Assembly: GCA_020746875.1 (NCBI GenBank)
Contig: JAGTJL010000004.1
Coordinates: forward strand, 1,612,001-1,676,000
Length of the DNA: 64,000 bases
Source: Rhexocercosporidium sp. MPI-PUGE-AT-0058
Lineage: Eukaryota; Ascomycota; Leotiomycetes; Helotiales
Direction: 5' to 3'
The notes below the pieces were generated by a model. The model saw only the letters and a program-made list of their open reading frames with translations. It was not told the DNA's origin and did no database searches. Shown here piece by piece: positions 49,731-64,000 of this stretch (position 1 is the first letter of the stretch; every line of letters begins with the position of its first letter). Position numbers and translations under genes: made by a program.

Positions 49731-50704
49731 GTTTATTAATTAAGCCGAATATACAATTTTATACTTGTAAAACTCGTACTGTATACGAAAAGTAATATAC
49801 TCTTTTAATTTAAAATCTATGCGAATACAATAAAAGGCTTATTATACGTTAATTTTGAAGAAAATTCTTGCCTTTCCTAAGCGGGCGAAGATCTTATTAA
49901 TCAAAAGTAATAAGTAACGGTTTTTACGAGTGATTTAATTTAGCCGGCGAAAGTTAATATAAAAACGGAATCTTTTATTAAGTTTTTTAATAAAAAAGAT
50001 TAAGCGATTAAAAAGAGCGTAACTCGGGATTATAAAGCTTTTATTTAAATATTCTTTTAAGTATTTCTTTATAATTTTTAATTCCTTTTCGCTTTAATTA
50101 TATAAAATATTATATTCGTAATCGATTAGCTTTTTAAATGAAATCTTATAATTTAATTTAAGTTGGGATTTAAGAATTATATCGGCGATATCTTTAAAGA
50201 AAGCGTTTTTATAATCGGCGAAGACTTCGAGTAAGAATCTAGCGAGAGCTTCTTCGTATGATTTTTTTAATTTTTATATTTAATTTTATTAAAAACGCTT
50301 TTAATATTTCCAGTCGATAGCTTTATTAATTTTATTTAAGGTTACCGTGAATACTTTATTTTCTTTCTTTTTAATGTTAAAATAAAAAGCTATTAAACTT
50401 ATTTCGTAAATTTTAAATATTAAGTATCCTTTTAATTAACGTTTTTAATAAAATAAAAATCGTCGTTAAGGAATAATATATGTATTAGCAAAATAAGGCG
50501 AGTCGTCCGAAGTAATATTTTATAAGGCTTTATTTATATTAGTTATCTCGGATCGGACTTAAGCTTAATATGTCAATAAGAGCACTCGAGTCTTTACGAA
50601 AGTTTTATAATTAATAGCTTTTTAATAAGCGGCTTATTGTACGGCTTTTTGAGCTTTAGACTTCTTTTCGTAATAACGCTTTATTAAAAGAGATAAAAAA
50701 AGAA

Positions 50705-51090
50705 GAGTACAGCTAAAGCATTATACGGAAATAGCTAAATCACCATACGCTAAGGTTTTTCTAAGTACGCCGGGCGCATTTATTAACCGCGCCTTATTAT
50801 ATTAATTTATATTAAGGATTAAGGGCCGTCGCTAAAACTCTTAAGTTTTATTAAACTTAACTTTTAAAGCTATTTATACTTTCTTACTTAATATATTAAA
50901 GTAATATATCGACTTTAAAAAAGATTATAAAAATGAATTAATATAATTACGTAGGATTTATATATTATACTAAGCTTCTAGTATAAATTAATATGATAGG
51001 GCGCGGTTAATAAATACACCCTCCGTATTCTTGAAAATTCCTTAGCGTATAATAATTTAACTATTTCCGTATAATACTTTAGCTGTACCT
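50705..51090 (+). mobile_element. 386-bp MULE-derived miniature element (MITE), copy 1
   Basis: Terminal inverted repeats GAGTACAGCTAAAG and CTTTAGCTGTACCT, target duplication AAAAAGAA on both sides (50,697-50,704; 51,091-51,098). The first 212 bp match the left end and the last 174 bp the right end of the element at 52,752-55,394, joined at CGACTTT (50,910-50,916). Inserted in Gypsy-3. The best preserved copy. Confidence 0.95.
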
Positions 51091-52383
51091 AAAAAGAATC
51101 TTCGGTTATATTCTTAAAAACAAGTTATAATTTTTAATAATAATCTCTTTTCTTTTATTATAATTTAAGATTAGTTTATATTCGGCTTCTAAGTCGGTAA
51201 GTAAATATTCCTCGAGAAAATTATTTTAATCTTTTTTAACTCGAGCTTATTAAAAAGACGCGCAAATAATTTATAATATAATAAGTATTTAATCTTTTCG
51301 ATCGAATGCCGCGTCTTTTCTTATAGCGTCTTCTTAATACTTTAATAATTATAATAAATCTATTGGAAAGCGAATATTATCTCGGTATACGTAAACTATT
51401 TTATAATAAAGTAATTAAATATTTTTATTATAAAACTAAATTAGCTTCGATTCTTTAATATTAAGTCAGATATCGAAGTATATTATTTATATAAGTTTAA
51501 GAATAACGTTTTATTACTTTAAGTTTAAGATAACGAAAAGAATTTAACGTTAAAGTCGGCCGTCGATTAATAAGTTTAAAAGAAAGTAATAAAATATATC
51601 TTTACTTACGTTATCATTATAACTACGAACGGATATACGTTTCGGAAGTCGGGTACGAAGAATATAAAAAGATTATATAAAATTAAGAGCGAGATTAATA
51701 TTAATAAATGCGAATCTATTAGCTTTAAAATTAAATAAAACTTAAATATTAAGTTCTTTATTATTAATAATTAAAGTATAATATTATAAAAACTTTTTTT
51801 CCGTTTTATAATTATCTTAAATCGATTTCTTTAAGATTTATTTACTTTAAAAAATAATCTTCTCTTAAAATATTTAGTTTTCCGGCTCTTCGAAGTTCTT
51901 AATTTCCTGAGATTTCTTTCCTTAATTATAAGAAGAGAAAGAGGTGCCCGAGGCTCCGCGCGCACTTCGAAGTAAGTCAGAAGAGTCGGAGTTATTATTT
52001 GAAAAAGGTTTTAAGAAGATATAATCGCGGAATCTCCAGGAATAATACGGCGCGCGGTAATAAGTAATTGTCGTTCTTATATTATAAAAATAATAAGCGC
52101 GGCAAATAATGCGGCATTAATATTACTTCGACGCACTTTTAAAAAAGAAGCGAAGAGGTTTATAACTTATAAACGTTTAAGGAAAAGCGAAGAAGTATAT
52201 TCGTTATCTTACGACATATATGCGATATTTATTTTTAATTTTAAATTAATATCGAATCGACTTCGAAGTGAAATTTAATTTATTGATTTTAAGTTAAGTT
52301 ATTTACACTCGGATTACTTAACGGGAATCGAAGAGAATAAAATAAATATTAATACTTTCGTAAGTAAAAAAAGTCTTTAATAA

Positions 52384-52658
52384 TATAACGGCGCGAATAA
52401 GAACTTATTATATTATTATTAATAAAAGATTAAAAACGCAAAAGGAAGAGAATTATAAGAATCTCCGAGTATAAATATATATAAAAAGGGTATTAATATA
52501 AAAAGCCGCACTAAGCTAAGCGAAGCTAGCCAGTTAGCGTAAGGCTTTGCGATATGCTACGACAAAACCAGTCCCGATGCGGCCTAGCATCTACAACCTC
52601 GGTTGCCTAACTCAGGTGACTACCAGGTGACTAACACGTGATCTAGTAGATCGTCACA
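52384..52658 (-). repeat. Gypsy-3 right LTR (5' LTR)
   Basis: 275 bp. The last 110 bp (from CGATATGCTACGACAAAACC) are nearly unmutated whereas the first 165 bp are AT-converted, so the mutation boundary lies within the LTR. Confidence 0.9.
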
Positions 52659-53639
52659 GTAATAGTTATTTAAAGAGTCTAAATAACTTTAATTTTAATT
52701 CTCAGTCTTAAGAGTAATTAAGTAATTATAAATATTTATATTATATATTAAGGGTATAACTAAAGTATTATGCGGAAATAATTAAATTATTATACGTTAA
52801 GGTTTTTTTAAGCACGCCGGGCGCATTTATTAACCGCGCCTTATTATATTAATTTATATTAAGAGCTAAAGGCCGTTAATAAAACCCTTAAGCTTTATTA
52901 AACTTAACTTTTAAAGCTATTTATACTTTCTTACTTAATACTTTAAAGTAATATATCGACTTTTATTAATAAGCCTTACGGCCTTACGCCTTTTATAATA
53001 ATTTACTTTAATCTTAATATTAAATTTATTACTATTTAAGCGCATGTAAAAGCCAACGATTATGCTTTTATAAAAAGAAATATTAAGCCACGCTATATAT
53101 TATATATTTATAATTATAAAAGTAAATATAAAATAAAAGAAAAGTAAACTAATATATATTTTATAAAAAAGCGCCTTAATATTAATTTTAAAAAATGCGA
53201 CTATTATATAAAAGTAATCCTTATAAAAGATTAGGTTTTAAGTAAATAAGAGTTAAATAATTTAAAAGCTATATATAATTACGTATACTTTATAAACTTT
53301 TCCGCTTATTTAATATATTAAATTTCTATTACTTCTTTAAATACTCGTGCTTTTATCGACTTTTTTATAAAATTAAGTCTTTTTAACGCTTAAATTTTAT
53401 CGACGTTATAAAAAAAGATTTAAGTATTATATTTATATTAAAAGATATTTTTAACTTTATATAAAAATTAAAAATTAAGTAATTAAAAGATAAAACGCTA
53501 ATTTAATAGCTTTTATAAATATAAGTCTTTATAAATAAAAGCTGCCTTTTTATTAATAAAATATATAAGAATTATAAAATAATTCTTATTTTCTTACGTA
53601 TAAATTAAACTCTAATCCTTTATAACGCTTATTTTTTAT

Positions 53640-54100
53640 TAACCCTTCCTTCTTAAAGCTTTAAAAGTAATATTATAACGTTTTATTCCTCGATTATATA
53701 TATAAAATAAATTAATTTAATATATTATTATTAAATATATACGGAGTTTTTAATAATAATATAATTATTTAATTAAGAATAGCGTTTTTATTAAAAGAAA
53801 AGGAAGTCGATTATAAATAAGCGCTTATATAACTTAAGGATATAATATCTTAATATATAATATTTTAATATATAATAAAAGAATCACTTTTTATTATAAT
53901 AAATAAAGAATTAGCTTTAATTAAGTGTTTTAAAATATTCTTTCTTAACGCTTATTACTTCTTTTATTATTAATATATAAATATAAATATATTAACGAAA
54001 ATTAAAAAATACTTTTCAAAGCTAATTAAAAGATTAAAAAGATAATAAACACGTTACTTAAGCTTTTAAATATTCTTATACTTTTAAAATAACTTATTAA
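53640..54100 (+). pseudogene. MULE transposase fossil (catalytic core)
   Basis: Plus-strand frame with several stops reads VLFLDYIYKIN (first Asp at 53,692-53,694), then LLLNIYGVFNNNIII, IAFLLKEKEVDYK and ELALIKCFKIFFLNAYYF. In active MULE enzymes the second Asp precedes RELAL; here it is Asn (53,902-53,904). The following C-x-W-H block reads Y-Y-stop-Y (53,965-53,976), so Cys, Trp and His were all lost by G-to-A or C-to-T change. The zinc-binding SWIM part was not resolved. Confidence 0.82.
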
Positions 54101-55028
54101 TTAATATAATTAAAGAGAATTATAATACGTCTTTAATAAAGATGCAGCTTCGCTATTTAATTTAAATTATAAGCTATTATAAGAATACTTAACTCCTTTA
54201 AAAAAAGAAACTAATTACTTTTTAAATTAATTAATTATATTACTTCGGAGTTATTATAATAAATCTAATTAGAAGTTATTACGCTATTTTAAAAACGTAT
54301 TTATAACGTAAGTATAATAATTTTCAAAGAATATTCCTTAAAATAAAGCTCTTTTAGAAAATATAATAATAAAATATTAAAATAATAATTATAAAGTAGT
54401 AATTATGCCCTCGTTATAATACGAATATTCCTCTTTTTATTATTATCTTTTAATTTATTTATAACTACGCTTTATAATAAATTAATTAAAAGTATAATAA
54501 GCTCCTTACAATAAGCCTTCTTTTAAATATTTATATATACTTAATATTAAAAGCACTTAGCCTTTTTTATTAATATATTATTTTTTAAAAAAAAAGTAAG
54601 AATATAAAGTAATTTTATTAAAAGATATATATTATTATTAATATTATTTTAAGTTATAAAAATATATCTTTTTTATAATTATTATTCCTTTACTTTTTTC
54701 GACTTTAAATTTAATAAAAATTAAAAGAAAAAGTAAGCTAAAAGGTATTTTAAGTAATAGAGATATATTAAAAGTAATTCTTTTTAATACTCGTAAAAAG
54801 CCTTTATTTTTTAAGCTCCTTTTAAGCTCTGCCCCTCTAGTCTTAAATATATTAATTCCGTAAACTTTTATAATATAAAATAACTTGTCGTCGAGTACAC
54901 TTATTATATAAAAGCTTTAATAAGGACATTAAGATTAATATAAGCTTAAAACGTAAAGAGAAAAAGGGTATATATATAATATATTATTAATTTATTAATT
55001 AAATAATATATTAAATACTATTAAGGCT

Positions 55029-55186
55029 TTTATAATTATAATTTAAAAGGATATAATTATAATTTAAAAGGATATAATTATAATTTAAAAGGATATAATT
55101 ATAATTTAAAAGGATATAATTATAATTTAAAAGGATATAATTATAATTTAAAAGGATATAATTATAATTTAAAAGGATATAATTAA
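55029..55186. repeat. 21-bp minisatellite inside the MULE
   Basis: About seven and a half copies of GGATATAATTATAATTTAAAA plus a partial unit. The other MULE copy has a single unit at the corresponding place (about 63,845-63,880 in reverse), so the expansion is specific to this copy. Confidence 0.9.
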
Positions 55187-55520
55187 AAGAATTAAAGTAT
55201 ATACTTAAAATGCCGACTTTAAAAAAGATTATAAAAATAAATTAATATAATTACGTAAAATATATATATTATACTTAGCTTTTAATATAAATTAAAATAA
55301 TAAGGCGCGGGTAATAAATATACCCTTTAGATTCTTAAAAATTCCTTAGCGTATAATAATTTAATTATTTCCGTATAATACTTTAGCTGTACCTTATATT
55401 AATAGCCCTTGCCCTTTAATATAAATTTATATAAGAAAGGTAGGTCTTTAAATGTGCTCGCCAAGTTACTAGAATTTTAGCGTATGGCGGTTTAACTATT
55501 TAATTATAGCGATTTAACTA

Positions 55521-55596
55521 ATAGCCGGTTCACCTCTTATATATTCGGGGACTCGCTTACAGTCGGGGAAAGCGAGTATCCCGCGAAAGCGAGTAT
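55521..55596 (+). repeat. pogo-like left terminal inverted repeat
   Basis: 76 bp of balanced composition with two direct GCGAGTAT words and an inverted ACTCGC, able to fold on itself. Confidence 0.9.
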
Positions 55597-55738
55597 CTCA
55601 CGCTACGTCAGAATTTATTAAAATTATTAAAATTATTAACAGTTATTACTTGAATTAAATAAACTTAATAATTAATTTCATAAAGAAAACTAAAAGAATA
55701 CGAAATCGGCCTAATAAGCAATTAAATTAATTAATTTA

Positions 55739-56124
55739 AGGTACAGCTAAAATATTATACGGAAATAATTAAATTATTATACGCTAAGAAATTTTCAAAA
55801 ATCCGGAGAGTATATTTATTAACCGCGCCTTATTATATTAATTTGTTTTAAAAGTTAAATATAATATATATATTTTACGTAATTATATTAATTTATTTTT
55901 ATAATCTTCTTTAAAATCGATATATTATTTTAAAATATTAAATAAGAAAGTATAAATAATTTTAAAAGTTAAGTTTAATAAAGCTTAAGAATTTTATTAA
56001 TAATATTTAGCTTTTAATATAAATTAATATAATAAAGCGCGGTTAATAAATACGCCCGGCGTGCTTAAAAAAACCTTAGCTTATAATAATTTAATTATTT
56101 CCGTATAATACTTTAATTATACTC
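55739..56124 (-). mobile_element. 386-bp MULE-derived miniature element, copy 2, inverted
   Basis: Exactly 386 bp, flanked by perfect TTAATTTA (55,731-55,738; 56,125-56,132). Ends AGGTACAGC and TATACTC are G-to-A and C-to-T forms of GGGTACAGC and TGTACCC. It lies inside the pogo-like element. More AT-converted than copy 1. Confidence 0.95.
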
Positions 56125-58358
56125 TTAATTTATTATTAAACTCAGTATTTAACGATTCTTTAAGAGTATTTTAATTATCGAGGTCAGGCTCAGAATCGAC
56201 GTAATCTCTAATTACTTCGGAATAAATATCTCTAAATCTAAACTCTACTTCTTAACTTAGTTTTATTATTTTTACTTATACTTTAGCTTTATAAACTTAT
56301 ATTAAAAGTTATAGAAAAGCCTCTTCGTTATATAAAGATTATTTAAAGATTATAAGTTGCTTTTCGAGGTTCTTAATTAAAATAAAATCTTTAAGTAAAG
56401 AAAGCTTTTCCGCCGAATATAAACTTTAAGACGCTTTTATCGTAACTTTTCGTCTTTACGTGCTTATATACCTCTTATATAAAAAGTATTCTTTATTTTA
56501 TTAATCGCTATATTAAGCTTTTTTTTTACTTTCTGTAAAATTTCGCTTAATTCTTTCTTATTTCTTATTTTAATCTTCTCTCGAAGATTATTTATTATAA
56601 AAGCTCTTTCTCTTTTTTATATACTTTTTCGCGAAATTCTCTTTCGTTTAATATTAGCTTTAATCTTCTCTTATAACGTGGAATACTTTAAAGTAATTAA
56701 ATATACTTTATATAATTATATAATTCTTTCTTTAATAATATCTTTAAATATAATAAGAATATTATTAAAAAAGTTAAATAAAATCCTTTTCTTTTAAAGT
56801 AATAAGCTTTGCAATAGCTTTTTATATAATATCTCGTAAAAAAAAAAAGTAAAAATAATAAATCTTATTTATTTTTACTTTTAGCTTTATTAATTTCGTT
56901 TACTTTTCTCTTTTTATAATTCTTCTTATACTTTTTTATTTTAGCGATTCTTACGTTTATAAAAACAGGCTATATTCCGGAGGTTTTAAATACGTTTATA
57001 ATTGTATATTTTTGAAAGGTTTAAGTACGGATTTTAATAAGATTGCGGAAGAAAAAGATAATAATATATTTAAAATTAAAGCTCCGTAATACGGCTTAAA
57101 TTACTAAGTTATAATAGTATTTTTAAGGCCGGAATACGCTAACGTCGAGAGGTTATAAAGTGTGCGTTAAATAAAAAAAGTAATAGAAAAGGTATATATA
57201 ATTTTCGCCGCACTTTAATTAAAATAACTTAAAGCAATGAGATTCGTGGCTATTTAAAAAGTAAAATCTTTTAAGGCTTATTTAGCTTAATTTTAGTATA
57301 TTTAATTAAGTAATTTAAGTATTTTATTATCTTCTCGTTATTAATATAACTTATAAGCGTATAAGTAATTATTTCTTTTTCTTTTAGTTCTTTTACAATT
57401 TAATTTTCTATAATATTAACTTTAAGAGTAATAATAAATAAAAGAAGCGGCTTTCGTTTATTTATATATATTATCTTTAAAATTATAATAAATTTGCGAC
57501 TCTTAAGAGAAACTATATATAGTTCTTTAGCTTATATTAATATAATAATAAATTCTTTAATAATAAAGCTAACTCGTGCTTTTAATTTATTTATATTTAA
57601 AATATTCCGTACATATTTAATTTTATACTTATTTATAACGAATTCTAGCTTTTTAAATTACTCCCAAACTTCATTTTTTATATATATATTAAATCGTGCG
57701 TGTGCGATAGGCTTCGTTTTAATTATATAAAGCTTAGCTTAATTCTTTAATTAATCCTAAAACTATTATTATATAAAAGGCTTTTAATTCGGAAATTGAG
57801 TTTGCAATTATTAATAAAAATACGTATAAGATATAATAATATACTTGCTTTAAGTAATAGATTATAATATAAATTATATTATGCGTCGCACTTAAGCCAA
57901 TTTCTTATTAACTTAAGTAATATTATATAATTATTTAATCTTACGTATTATTTAATATTTTATTTATTTTATTATACGTATTAAACGTTCCTTGCGAATT
58001 CCGCACCCGATTCTTTATTTTATTAATAGACTTCTTTAAAGAATCTTCTTTAATAAAGTATATTCGTATTATAATAATTAATTACTCGGTAGAATAGGCA
58101 ATTTTCTATTCGCGGGCCTCTGTAAAAGCTCTGTCGTAATCTGATTTAATAATATATTTAAGATAATAATTCGTAATTAATTATTATTTAATAAGTAAAA
58201 GAAAGACATAATTCCTTTATTAAAGGTTCCTTACTTTAAATTAAGCAAGAGCTATAGTTTTATTAAAAGTAATATTATATACGAGTTTTAATTAAAATTT
58301 TATTTATAAGAAAATATAATTTACGCGTAAAATCCTTAATAACGCGATCTGGCGCAAA

Positions 58359-58434
58359 ATACTCGCTTTCGCGGGATACTCGCTTTCCCCGACTGTAAGC
58401 GAGTCCCCGAGTATACAAGAGGTGAACCGGCTAT
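58359..58434 (-). repeat. pogo-like right terminal inverted repeat
   Basis: Reverse complement of 55,521-55,596 with two differences, both C/T or A/G. Confidence 0.9.
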
Positions 58435-59457: not shown

Positions 59458-59843
59458 GGGTATAATTAAAGCATTATACGGAAATAATTAAATCATTATA
59501 CGTTAAGGTTTTTTAAAGCACGCCAGGCGTATTTATTAATTGCGCTTTATTATATTAATTTATATTAAAAGCTAAGAGCCGTTAATAAAACCTTTAAGCT
59601 TTATTAAACTTAACTTTTAAAACTATTTATATTTTTTCATTTAATATTTTAAAATAATATATCGATTTTAAAGAAGATTATAAAAATAAATTAATATAAT
59701 TACGTAAAATATATATATTATACTTAGCTTTTAATATAAATTAATATAATAAGGCGTAGTTAATAAATGTACCTTCTGGATTCTTAAAAATTCCTTAGCG
59801 TATAATGATTTAATTATTTCCGTATAATGCTTTAGTTATACCC
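59458..59843 (+). mobile_element. 386-bp MULE-derived miniature element, copy 3
   Basis: Exactly 386 bp with GGGTATAATTAAAG/CTTTAGTTATACCC ends and AATAATAA on both sides (59,450-59,457; 59,844-59,851). The junction reads CGATTTT where copy 1 has CGACTTT. The right duplication is continuous with the AAT microsatellite. Confidence 0.95.
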
Positions 59844-60146
<303 letters not shown>

Positions 60147-61054: not shown

Positions 61055-61241
61055 GCAAGTAAGAAAGTATAAATAACTTCAAAAGTCAAGTTTAGTAAAG
61101 CTTAAAGGTTTTATTAACGGCCCTTAGTTCTTAATATAAATTAATATAATAAGGCGCGGTTAATAAATGCGCCCGGCGTGCCTGGAAAAACCTTAACATA
61201 TAATGATTTAGTTATTTCCGTATAATACTTTAGCTATACTT
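61055..61241 (+). mobile_element. Truncated MULE-derived miniature
   Basis: The right half of an inverted-orientation miniature, from AAGTAAGAAAGTATAAATAAC to the terminal TAGCTATACTT, followed by AATAATAA. The other end is missing, replaced by about 30 bp of unassigned sequence next to R2 copy f. Confidence 0.8.
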
Positions 61242-63631: not shown

Positions 63632-64000
63632 GGGTACAGCTAAAGCACTATACGGAAATAGCTAAATCATTATACGTTAAGGAATTTTTAAGAATCCGGA
63701 AGGTATATTTATTACCCGCGCCCTATTATATTAATTTATATTAAAAGCTAAGTGTAATATATATATCTTATATAATTATATTAATTTATCTTTATAATCC
63801 TCTTTAAAGTCGACATCTTAAGTATATATTTTAATTCCTTTAATTATATCTCTTTAAATTACAATTATAAAAGCTTTAATAATATTTAATATATTATTTA
63901 GTTAATAAATTAATAATATATTATATATATACCCTTTCTTTCTTTACGTTTTAGACTCGTACTAATCTTAATGTCTTTGCCGAAGCCTTTATATAATAAG
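63632..64000 (-). mobile_element. Second MULE copy, inverted, cut by the window end
   Basis: Starts GGGTACAGCTAAAGCACTAT and follows the reverse complement of the right end of the MULE at 52,752-55,394 for its whole 369 bp, past the miniature junction (about 63,805) into unique internal sequence, so it is not a miniature. Less mutated than the first copy. The flank before it is TAAAAGAA. Confidence 0.9.

Follow-up and report, generated by a model that had tools for sequence, protein, structure and literature searches.

A 386-bp miniature and an undeleted relative in one window

The stretch analysed here, referred to as the window, comprises 64,000 bp of the genome of Rhexocercosporidium sp. 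MPI-PUGE-AT-0058 (contig JAGTJL010000004.1; G000:C34:1612001-1676000), and contains a decayed Mutator-like element (MULE) together with three 386-bp miniature elements that share its ends. The locus raises the question of how the miniatures arose, and whether they go back to one event. The MULE carries the 7-bp motif CGACTTT twice, and a first-pass annotation of the window proposed that the miniatures are the exact product of a deletion between the two copies. We find it very probable that a single founder was formed by loss of the MULE middle between these motifs and then spread as one family of miniature inverted-repeat transposable elements (MITEs). The features on which this rests are listed by window position, with target site duplications (TSDs) and terminal inverted repeats (TIRs):

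50705..51090, + strand, miniature copy 1, 386 bp, joint CGACTTT at 50,910-50,916; TSD AAAAAGAA at 50,697-50,704 and 51,091-51,098, 8/8
52752..55394, + strand, decayed MULE, 2,643 bp, flanked on both sides by TSD TATATTAA
52752..52869, + strand, left TIR, ~118 bp; element positions 1-118 match 2523/2524-2643 inverted
52957..52963, + strand, left CGACTTT, the left deletion edge
53680..53988, + strand, remnant of a PF10551-like transposase core, with stops throughout, absent from the miniature
55031..55185, + strand, perfect 21-bp tandem array of 7.4 units
55214..55220, + strand, right CGACTTT, the right deletion edge
55275..55394, - strand, right TIR, ~118-120 bp, an inverted match to the left TIR
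55739..56124, - strand, miniature copy 2, 386 bp; TSD TTAATTTA at 55,731-55,738 and 56,125-56,132, 8/8
59458..59843, + strand, miniature copy 3, 386 bp; TSD AATAATAA, 8/8, the right one inside an AAT microsatellite

On recomputation the motif positions and the arithmetic of the first-pass annotation proved exact: joining 52,752-52,963 to 55,221-55,394 gives a product of 386 bp, to which copies 1-3 align without gaps. Its three miniatures with the predicted joint were borne out, with the addition that copy 2 lies in reverse orientation, as were their perfect and different TSDs (8/8 each). The perfect TSD of copy 3 is weak evidence, because its right member forms the first bases of a 101-unit AAT array: the perfect (AAT)101 microsatellite at 59844-60146 starts directly where this copy ends on the right, and takes in its TSD. 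Either copy 3 inserted into the array or the array expanded from the target duplication. As single-stranded DNA, copy 1 is predicted to fold into a long hairpin (z -13.3).

We assign the undeleted element to the MULE superfamily, judging by its ~118-bp TIRs, 8-bp TSDs and transposase remnant. In a profile scan with the frame taken from tblastn, PF10551 scored 21.2 bits (E 3.9e-4) in the window MULE and 20.5 bits in M2, a second near-full-length MULE, against a cut-off of 27.6 bits; a Pfam scan of another reading frame of the window MULE gave no match. Eleven of the 37 PF10551 matches in the genome fall in the family loci that we examined, and all 11 score above the cut-off, one of them only in combination with its neighbours. 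The PF10551 stretches of these relatives all map to element positions 929-1237 (tblastn, E <= 3e-21) and contain stops in 11/11 cases, and the forward frames of the window MULE hold 80, 105 and 97 stops. Both near-full-length MULEs have 8-bp TSDs with an 8/8 match.

The same joint in 14 copies across the genome

The genome searched comprises 62.7 Mb in 60 contigs. With the MULE and miniature copies 1 and 2 as queries, first searches placed the 386-bp form on many contigs, with counts that are lower bounds. A joint pattern tolerant of repeat-induced point mutation (RIP) was then found at 21 places genome-wide, 14 of which are true joints (12 with no mismatch and two with one); the other seven have 2-3 mismatches, and each is the right end of an undeleted element. 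Thirteen of the joint-bearing copies are full length (11 of 386 bp, one of 385 and one of 388), and one is truncated on the left. The joint reads CGACTTT in seven copies, CGATTTT in four, TAACTTT in two and CGAATTT in one, and the genome-wide count that the first-pass annotation had proposed returned 14/14 joints alike apart from point changes. The 13 full-length copies have the properties of MITEs, being short, without transposase, bounded by TIRs, constant in length (385-388 bp) and provided with TSDs of their own, which match 8/8 in 9/13.

The corresponding pattern for undeleted right ends was found at 19 places, of which 14 with 0-2 mismatches are family members and five with 3 mismatches resemble chance matches in AT-rich sequence. 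The right motif, on whose presence the first-pass annotation had made its single-founder model depend, is intact in 12/14 of these family places and reads CGACTTC and CGACTAT in the remaining two. The undeleted left-side pattern was found at 29 places, including sister subfamilies, and the left CGACTTT is intact in a left-end fragment (C6_2231) and in six miniatures with other junctions, described below (5/5 copies of class B and the single class F copy).

The 19 perfect TSDs of the family hold four G/C among 152 bases and read roughly TWAATWWA. This composition may reflect a target preference, or survivorship, since RIP would mismatch TSDs that contain G or C. Two miniatures, C32_1777 (L004) and C11_294 (L059), have an identical 14-bp right flank, yet only C11_294 has an 8/8 TSD; the common flank may be due to duplication or to recombination between the sites.

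A private transversion points to a single founder

A column in the right TIR separates the 386-bp family from its relatives. It is T (GGTTAAT) in 13/13 full-length miniatures and G in 18/18 other family members aligned, these being MULE right ends and other miniatures. RIP makes transitions and this G/T change is a transversion, so the marker was not made by RIP. A private transversion common to all 13 full-length copies gives good support to one founder, and on this ground we rejected multiple founders. The claim that one deletion at CGACTTT was followed by transposition is supported, with the same joint in 14/14 copies and the same marker in 13/13.

The T restores pairing at a mismatch between the two TIRs, and because it repairs this mismatch, the marker may have come from short TIR-to-TIR copying. 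A clearer case of such copying is the 388-bp copy, C11_294 (G000:C11:294952-295338): its left TIR resembles the right TIR, which to judge by its sequence shows TIR-to-TIR conversion.

The window MULE lacks the T marker and carries the perfect 21-bp array, which none of the other aligned copies shows; their alignment skips element positions ~2329-2406, and the array is probably younger than the decay of this MULE. Since it has the array and lacks the marker, we regard the window MULE as a sibling of the founder's parent rather than the literal parent. In this respect the description of the miniatures as the exact deletion product of this MULE stands for joint and length, and is too strong for parentage.

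The middle was lost, and the switch lies within the 7 bp

Two sister MULEs of ~70% identity, C45_1923 and C59_1932, are contiguous over element positions ~24 to ~2310 and then 2406 to ~2625. Because they run colinear across both edges, the miniature is a deletion product, and insertion into a shorter ancestor was rejected. In less mutated relatives the left edge reads ATGTCGACTTT and the right edge ATGCCGACTTT. All 14 copies have T, the left-end state, before the 7 bp and A or G, the right-end state, after it, which places the switch point inside the 7 bp. If two breakpoints are drawn at random, the probability of microhomology of at least 7 bp is 0.0089 in the window MULE and 0.0077 in M2. 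This favours homology-guided joining, short of proof.

Other miniatures from the same MULE family and a sister subfamily

The first-pass annotation had called it uncommon to catch the birth of a miniature family beside its parent in one window. This was overstated, as the same MULE family has five or more additional junction classes and a sister subfamily has about five (S1-S5). The classes of the same family, with junctions in element coordinates, are:

class B, ~242|2085, 5 copies
class C, 85|2056, 3 copies, one of them seen in part
class D, ~403|2462, 4 copies, a divergent subfamily
class E, 87|2171, 1 copy
class F, 212|2114, 617 bp, 1 copy (L065, G000:C17:389455-390071)

Perfect 8-bp TSDs were found at the assumed ends of 10/15 elements tested, namely two MULEs, four of five class B copies, class F, both class C copies tested and class E. 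Class D gave 0/4, with ends that are poorly set; one D copy gave 8/8 once its ends were shifted. The sister subfamily was taken as loci L073-L085 with L071 and L072. It includes nine miniatures with a readable junction, and none was readable in L075, L076, L077, L078 and L085.

Some of these junctions touch the motif used by the 386-bp family (class A). Class F shares its left edge, and the right edge of D and S3 is the base that immediately precedes the right CGACTTT or the equivalent motif of the sister subfamily. At the joint of class F, CGACTTT runs straight onto GACTTT, with both motif copies kept and not collapsed; its right motif is kept as CGACTTC, and the site of its right breakpoint reads AAACTTT in the window MULE. 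Class D has the same right edge, but its sequence argues against descent of the 386-bp family from it: a 13-bp stretch to the left of the joint and 7-8 bp to its right, both common to the 386-bp family and the MULE, are missing from 4/4 class D copies.

By hand count, 3/10 breakpoints of classes B-F coincide with a GACTTT edge, namely both of F and the right one of D. The chance of this is 1e-4 (window MULE) or 4e-5 (M2) for the literal motif and 2.4e-3 or 1.5e-3 for a RIP-tolerant one, with the motif taken from the 386-bp family and the edge definition fixed after F and D were seen. We also scored the coincidence of breakpoints between classes. For six classes under a uniform null, the probability was 0.20 for at least one coincidence and 0.011 for left and right both. 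For eleven classes, in which the breakpoints of B and S1-S5 were set by eye or estimated and are accurate to a few bases, it was 0.061 (right), 0.066 (total) and 0.021 (both). Smoothed nulls gave, in the same order, 0.083, 0.048 and 0.017 (60 bp), 0.21, 0.15 and 0.062 (30 bp), and 0.39, 0.35 and 0.18 (15 bp). The tests disagree, and reuse of GACTTT or of breakpoints is suggestive.

A stronger reading is that miniature birth is sequence-guided, with the GACTTT ~175-180 bp from the right end acting as a recurrent switch for three independent classes (A, D and S3, the last from the sister subfamily ~70% identical) and its left counterpart for two (A and F). We hold this to be doubtful. If it were true, the element's own sequence would make it prone to give rise to parasites whose form can be predicted.

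How the founder deletion may have arisen

We think abortive gap repair a rather likely route for the founder deletion. Excision of a MULE would leave a gap whose repair begins; on reaching the left CGACTTT, the strand that copies the left end would slip to the right CGACTTT, and copying would be completed on the right end, giving a 386-bp element without the middle. This founder would then have been moved in trans by MULE transposase, which is probable for the miniatures in general because they have the same ends and the same TSD length as the MULE. Abortive gap repair was reportedly described for Ac/Ds by Rubin and Levy in 1997. The features expected of it are seen here, with an internal deletion, intact ends and a joint at a short repeat (7 bp, and ~0-3 bp in B-F). 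We prefer gap repair because joint homology varies within one family, the ends are intact and TIR-to-TIR copying occurs. The first-pass annotation had offered the repair mechanism as an inference, which it stays; the deletion and the joint themselves were confirmed.

Several observations weigh against the account given so far. No transposition has been observed, and the founder's T marker is in no MULE right end aligned. Four of the 13 full-length copies (C32_1777, C27_7, C45_1883 and C1_1497) lack a good TSD. The left motif is altered to TAACTTT in M2, which RIP can explain, and to CAAGTTT in the fragment C59_1928, which RIP alone cannot. By simple arithmetic, a 7-bp match would arise by chance in ~5% of cases across six junction classes and ~9% across eleven, and the other joints read have 0-3 bp of homology (by eye, in B-F, S1 and S3).

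The principal alternative is microhomology-mediated end joining of a break inside the MULE, or replication slippage between the CGACTTT repeats, with no excision or gap repair. The perfect 7-bp homology at the joint (10/11 bases if one mismatch is allowed) and the lack of filler DNA are what such joining would leave. However, the five other classes were joined at ~0-3 bp, which agrees at least equally well with a loosely controlled process, for instance abortive gap repair, and the TIR-to-TIR copying in the 388-bp copy agrees with template switching. We regard end joining or slippage as possible, and as the less probable route.

An unlikely origin is one in two steps, in which the 617-bp class F element came first and a deletion between its CGACTTT motifs then gave the 386-bp form. 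Class F has a left breakpoint identical to that of the 386-bp family, which would allow two steps, and it retains the right motif, but it is a single copy and has the ancestral G marker. RIP-insensitive markers for this question amount to two columns on the left and four on the right, too few to settle it.

Independent deletions at CGACTTT could have produced several 386-bp lineages, since identical sequence would yield an identical product and D and F each reuse one edge; the private transversion in 13/13 full-length copies makes this very improbable. Under the reverse polarity, the 386-bp form would be the ancestor, into which a 2.25-kb element inserted while duplicating CGACTTT as its target. 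This would explain why the extra segment is flanked by a 7-bp direct repeat, but has a negligible chance of being right, as sister MULEs hold this body between these ends in colinear order, the transposase remnant lies in that body and other classes retain different parts of it.

RIP-like decay of the miniatures

A preference for C-to-T change at CA is the pattern of fungal RIP. In the 13 miniatures, C>T change by context was 61% at CA, 44% at CT, 17% at CC and 13% at CG. Summed over every pair among the 13 copies and the predicted product, the differences amount to 4026 transitions and 321 transversions. Compared singly with the predicted product, the copies have 24-54 transitions and 2-8 transversions each, and of the 142 G:C sites inferred for the ancestor, between 9 and 90 per copy are changed RIP-style. 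The decay of the miniatures appears RIP-like; RIP may have acted on them directly or may have reached them from adjoining repeats. Candidates for a RID-type methyltransferase are 10 PF00145 matches at five loci.

Genomic setting

From ~27 kb onward the window is an AT-rich block, with GC per kilobase of 12-34% vs 44-56% upstream. Among the matches listed, close family members form one internal cluster per large contig, in AT-rich blocks (for example C34 1.66-1.68 Mb, C58 1.63-1.70 Mb, C45 1.88-1.93 Mb and C59 1.92-1.93 Mb). These blocks could be candidate centromeres. Three further features lie within the block in the window:

55522-58433, TIR element of ~2.9 kb, with near-identical inverted ends that start TAGCCGGTTCACCTCTT
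61057..61240, - strand, truncated left end of a MULE-family member (element positions 3-185)
63632..64000, - strand, right end of M2 (2,626 bp), which runs beyond the window to G000:C34:1678257

The ends of the ~2.9-kb TIR element are richer in G+C than their surroundings, and miniature copy 2 is nested inside it. Elsewhere in the genome, stop-free PF10551 matches occur in open frames of 501-602 amino acids at C1:373824-374117, C14:1185422-1185715 and C33:40472-40765, and other MULEs with possibly intact transposases are thus predicted.

Comparison with known systems

Miniature birth by this kind of event is already known, according to the parts of the accounts available (PMC4161770, PMC2213677). 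Titles and abstract openings, among the literature matches listed, held no fungal MULE-MITE joint of this kind, which is not proof of absence. What is unusual here is the completeness of the record within one genome: with the joint, undeleted relatives, a founder marker and rival junction classes side by side, random and steered MITE birth become countable.

Three published systems bear comparison, each in so far as the available part of its account describes it. Muta1 and other MULEs have TIRs over 100 bp and TSDs of 8-10 bp (PMC5225508), and the present element, with its ~118-bp TIRs, 8-bp TSDs and MULE transposase remnant, is alike; unlike Muta1, for which that part of the account reports no target preference, its perfect TSDs are almost pure A/T, possibly through RIP survivorship. 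In Epichloe, MITE 8m has been matched to its autonomous parent Waru (PMC3585121). That case resembles ours in being a MITE of a fungus for which a relic of the parent is identified, within AT-rich repeat blocks, and differs in that the deletion joint is given here and none appears in the available part of the 8m account. The mariner MITE sublineages of Drosophila formed by internal deletion (PMC4161770); they share with the family described here kept ends, a lost coding middle, amplification and several sublineages per element, whereas in the present family the joint can be placed within 7 bp and is accompanied by a private marker and RIP-like mutation.

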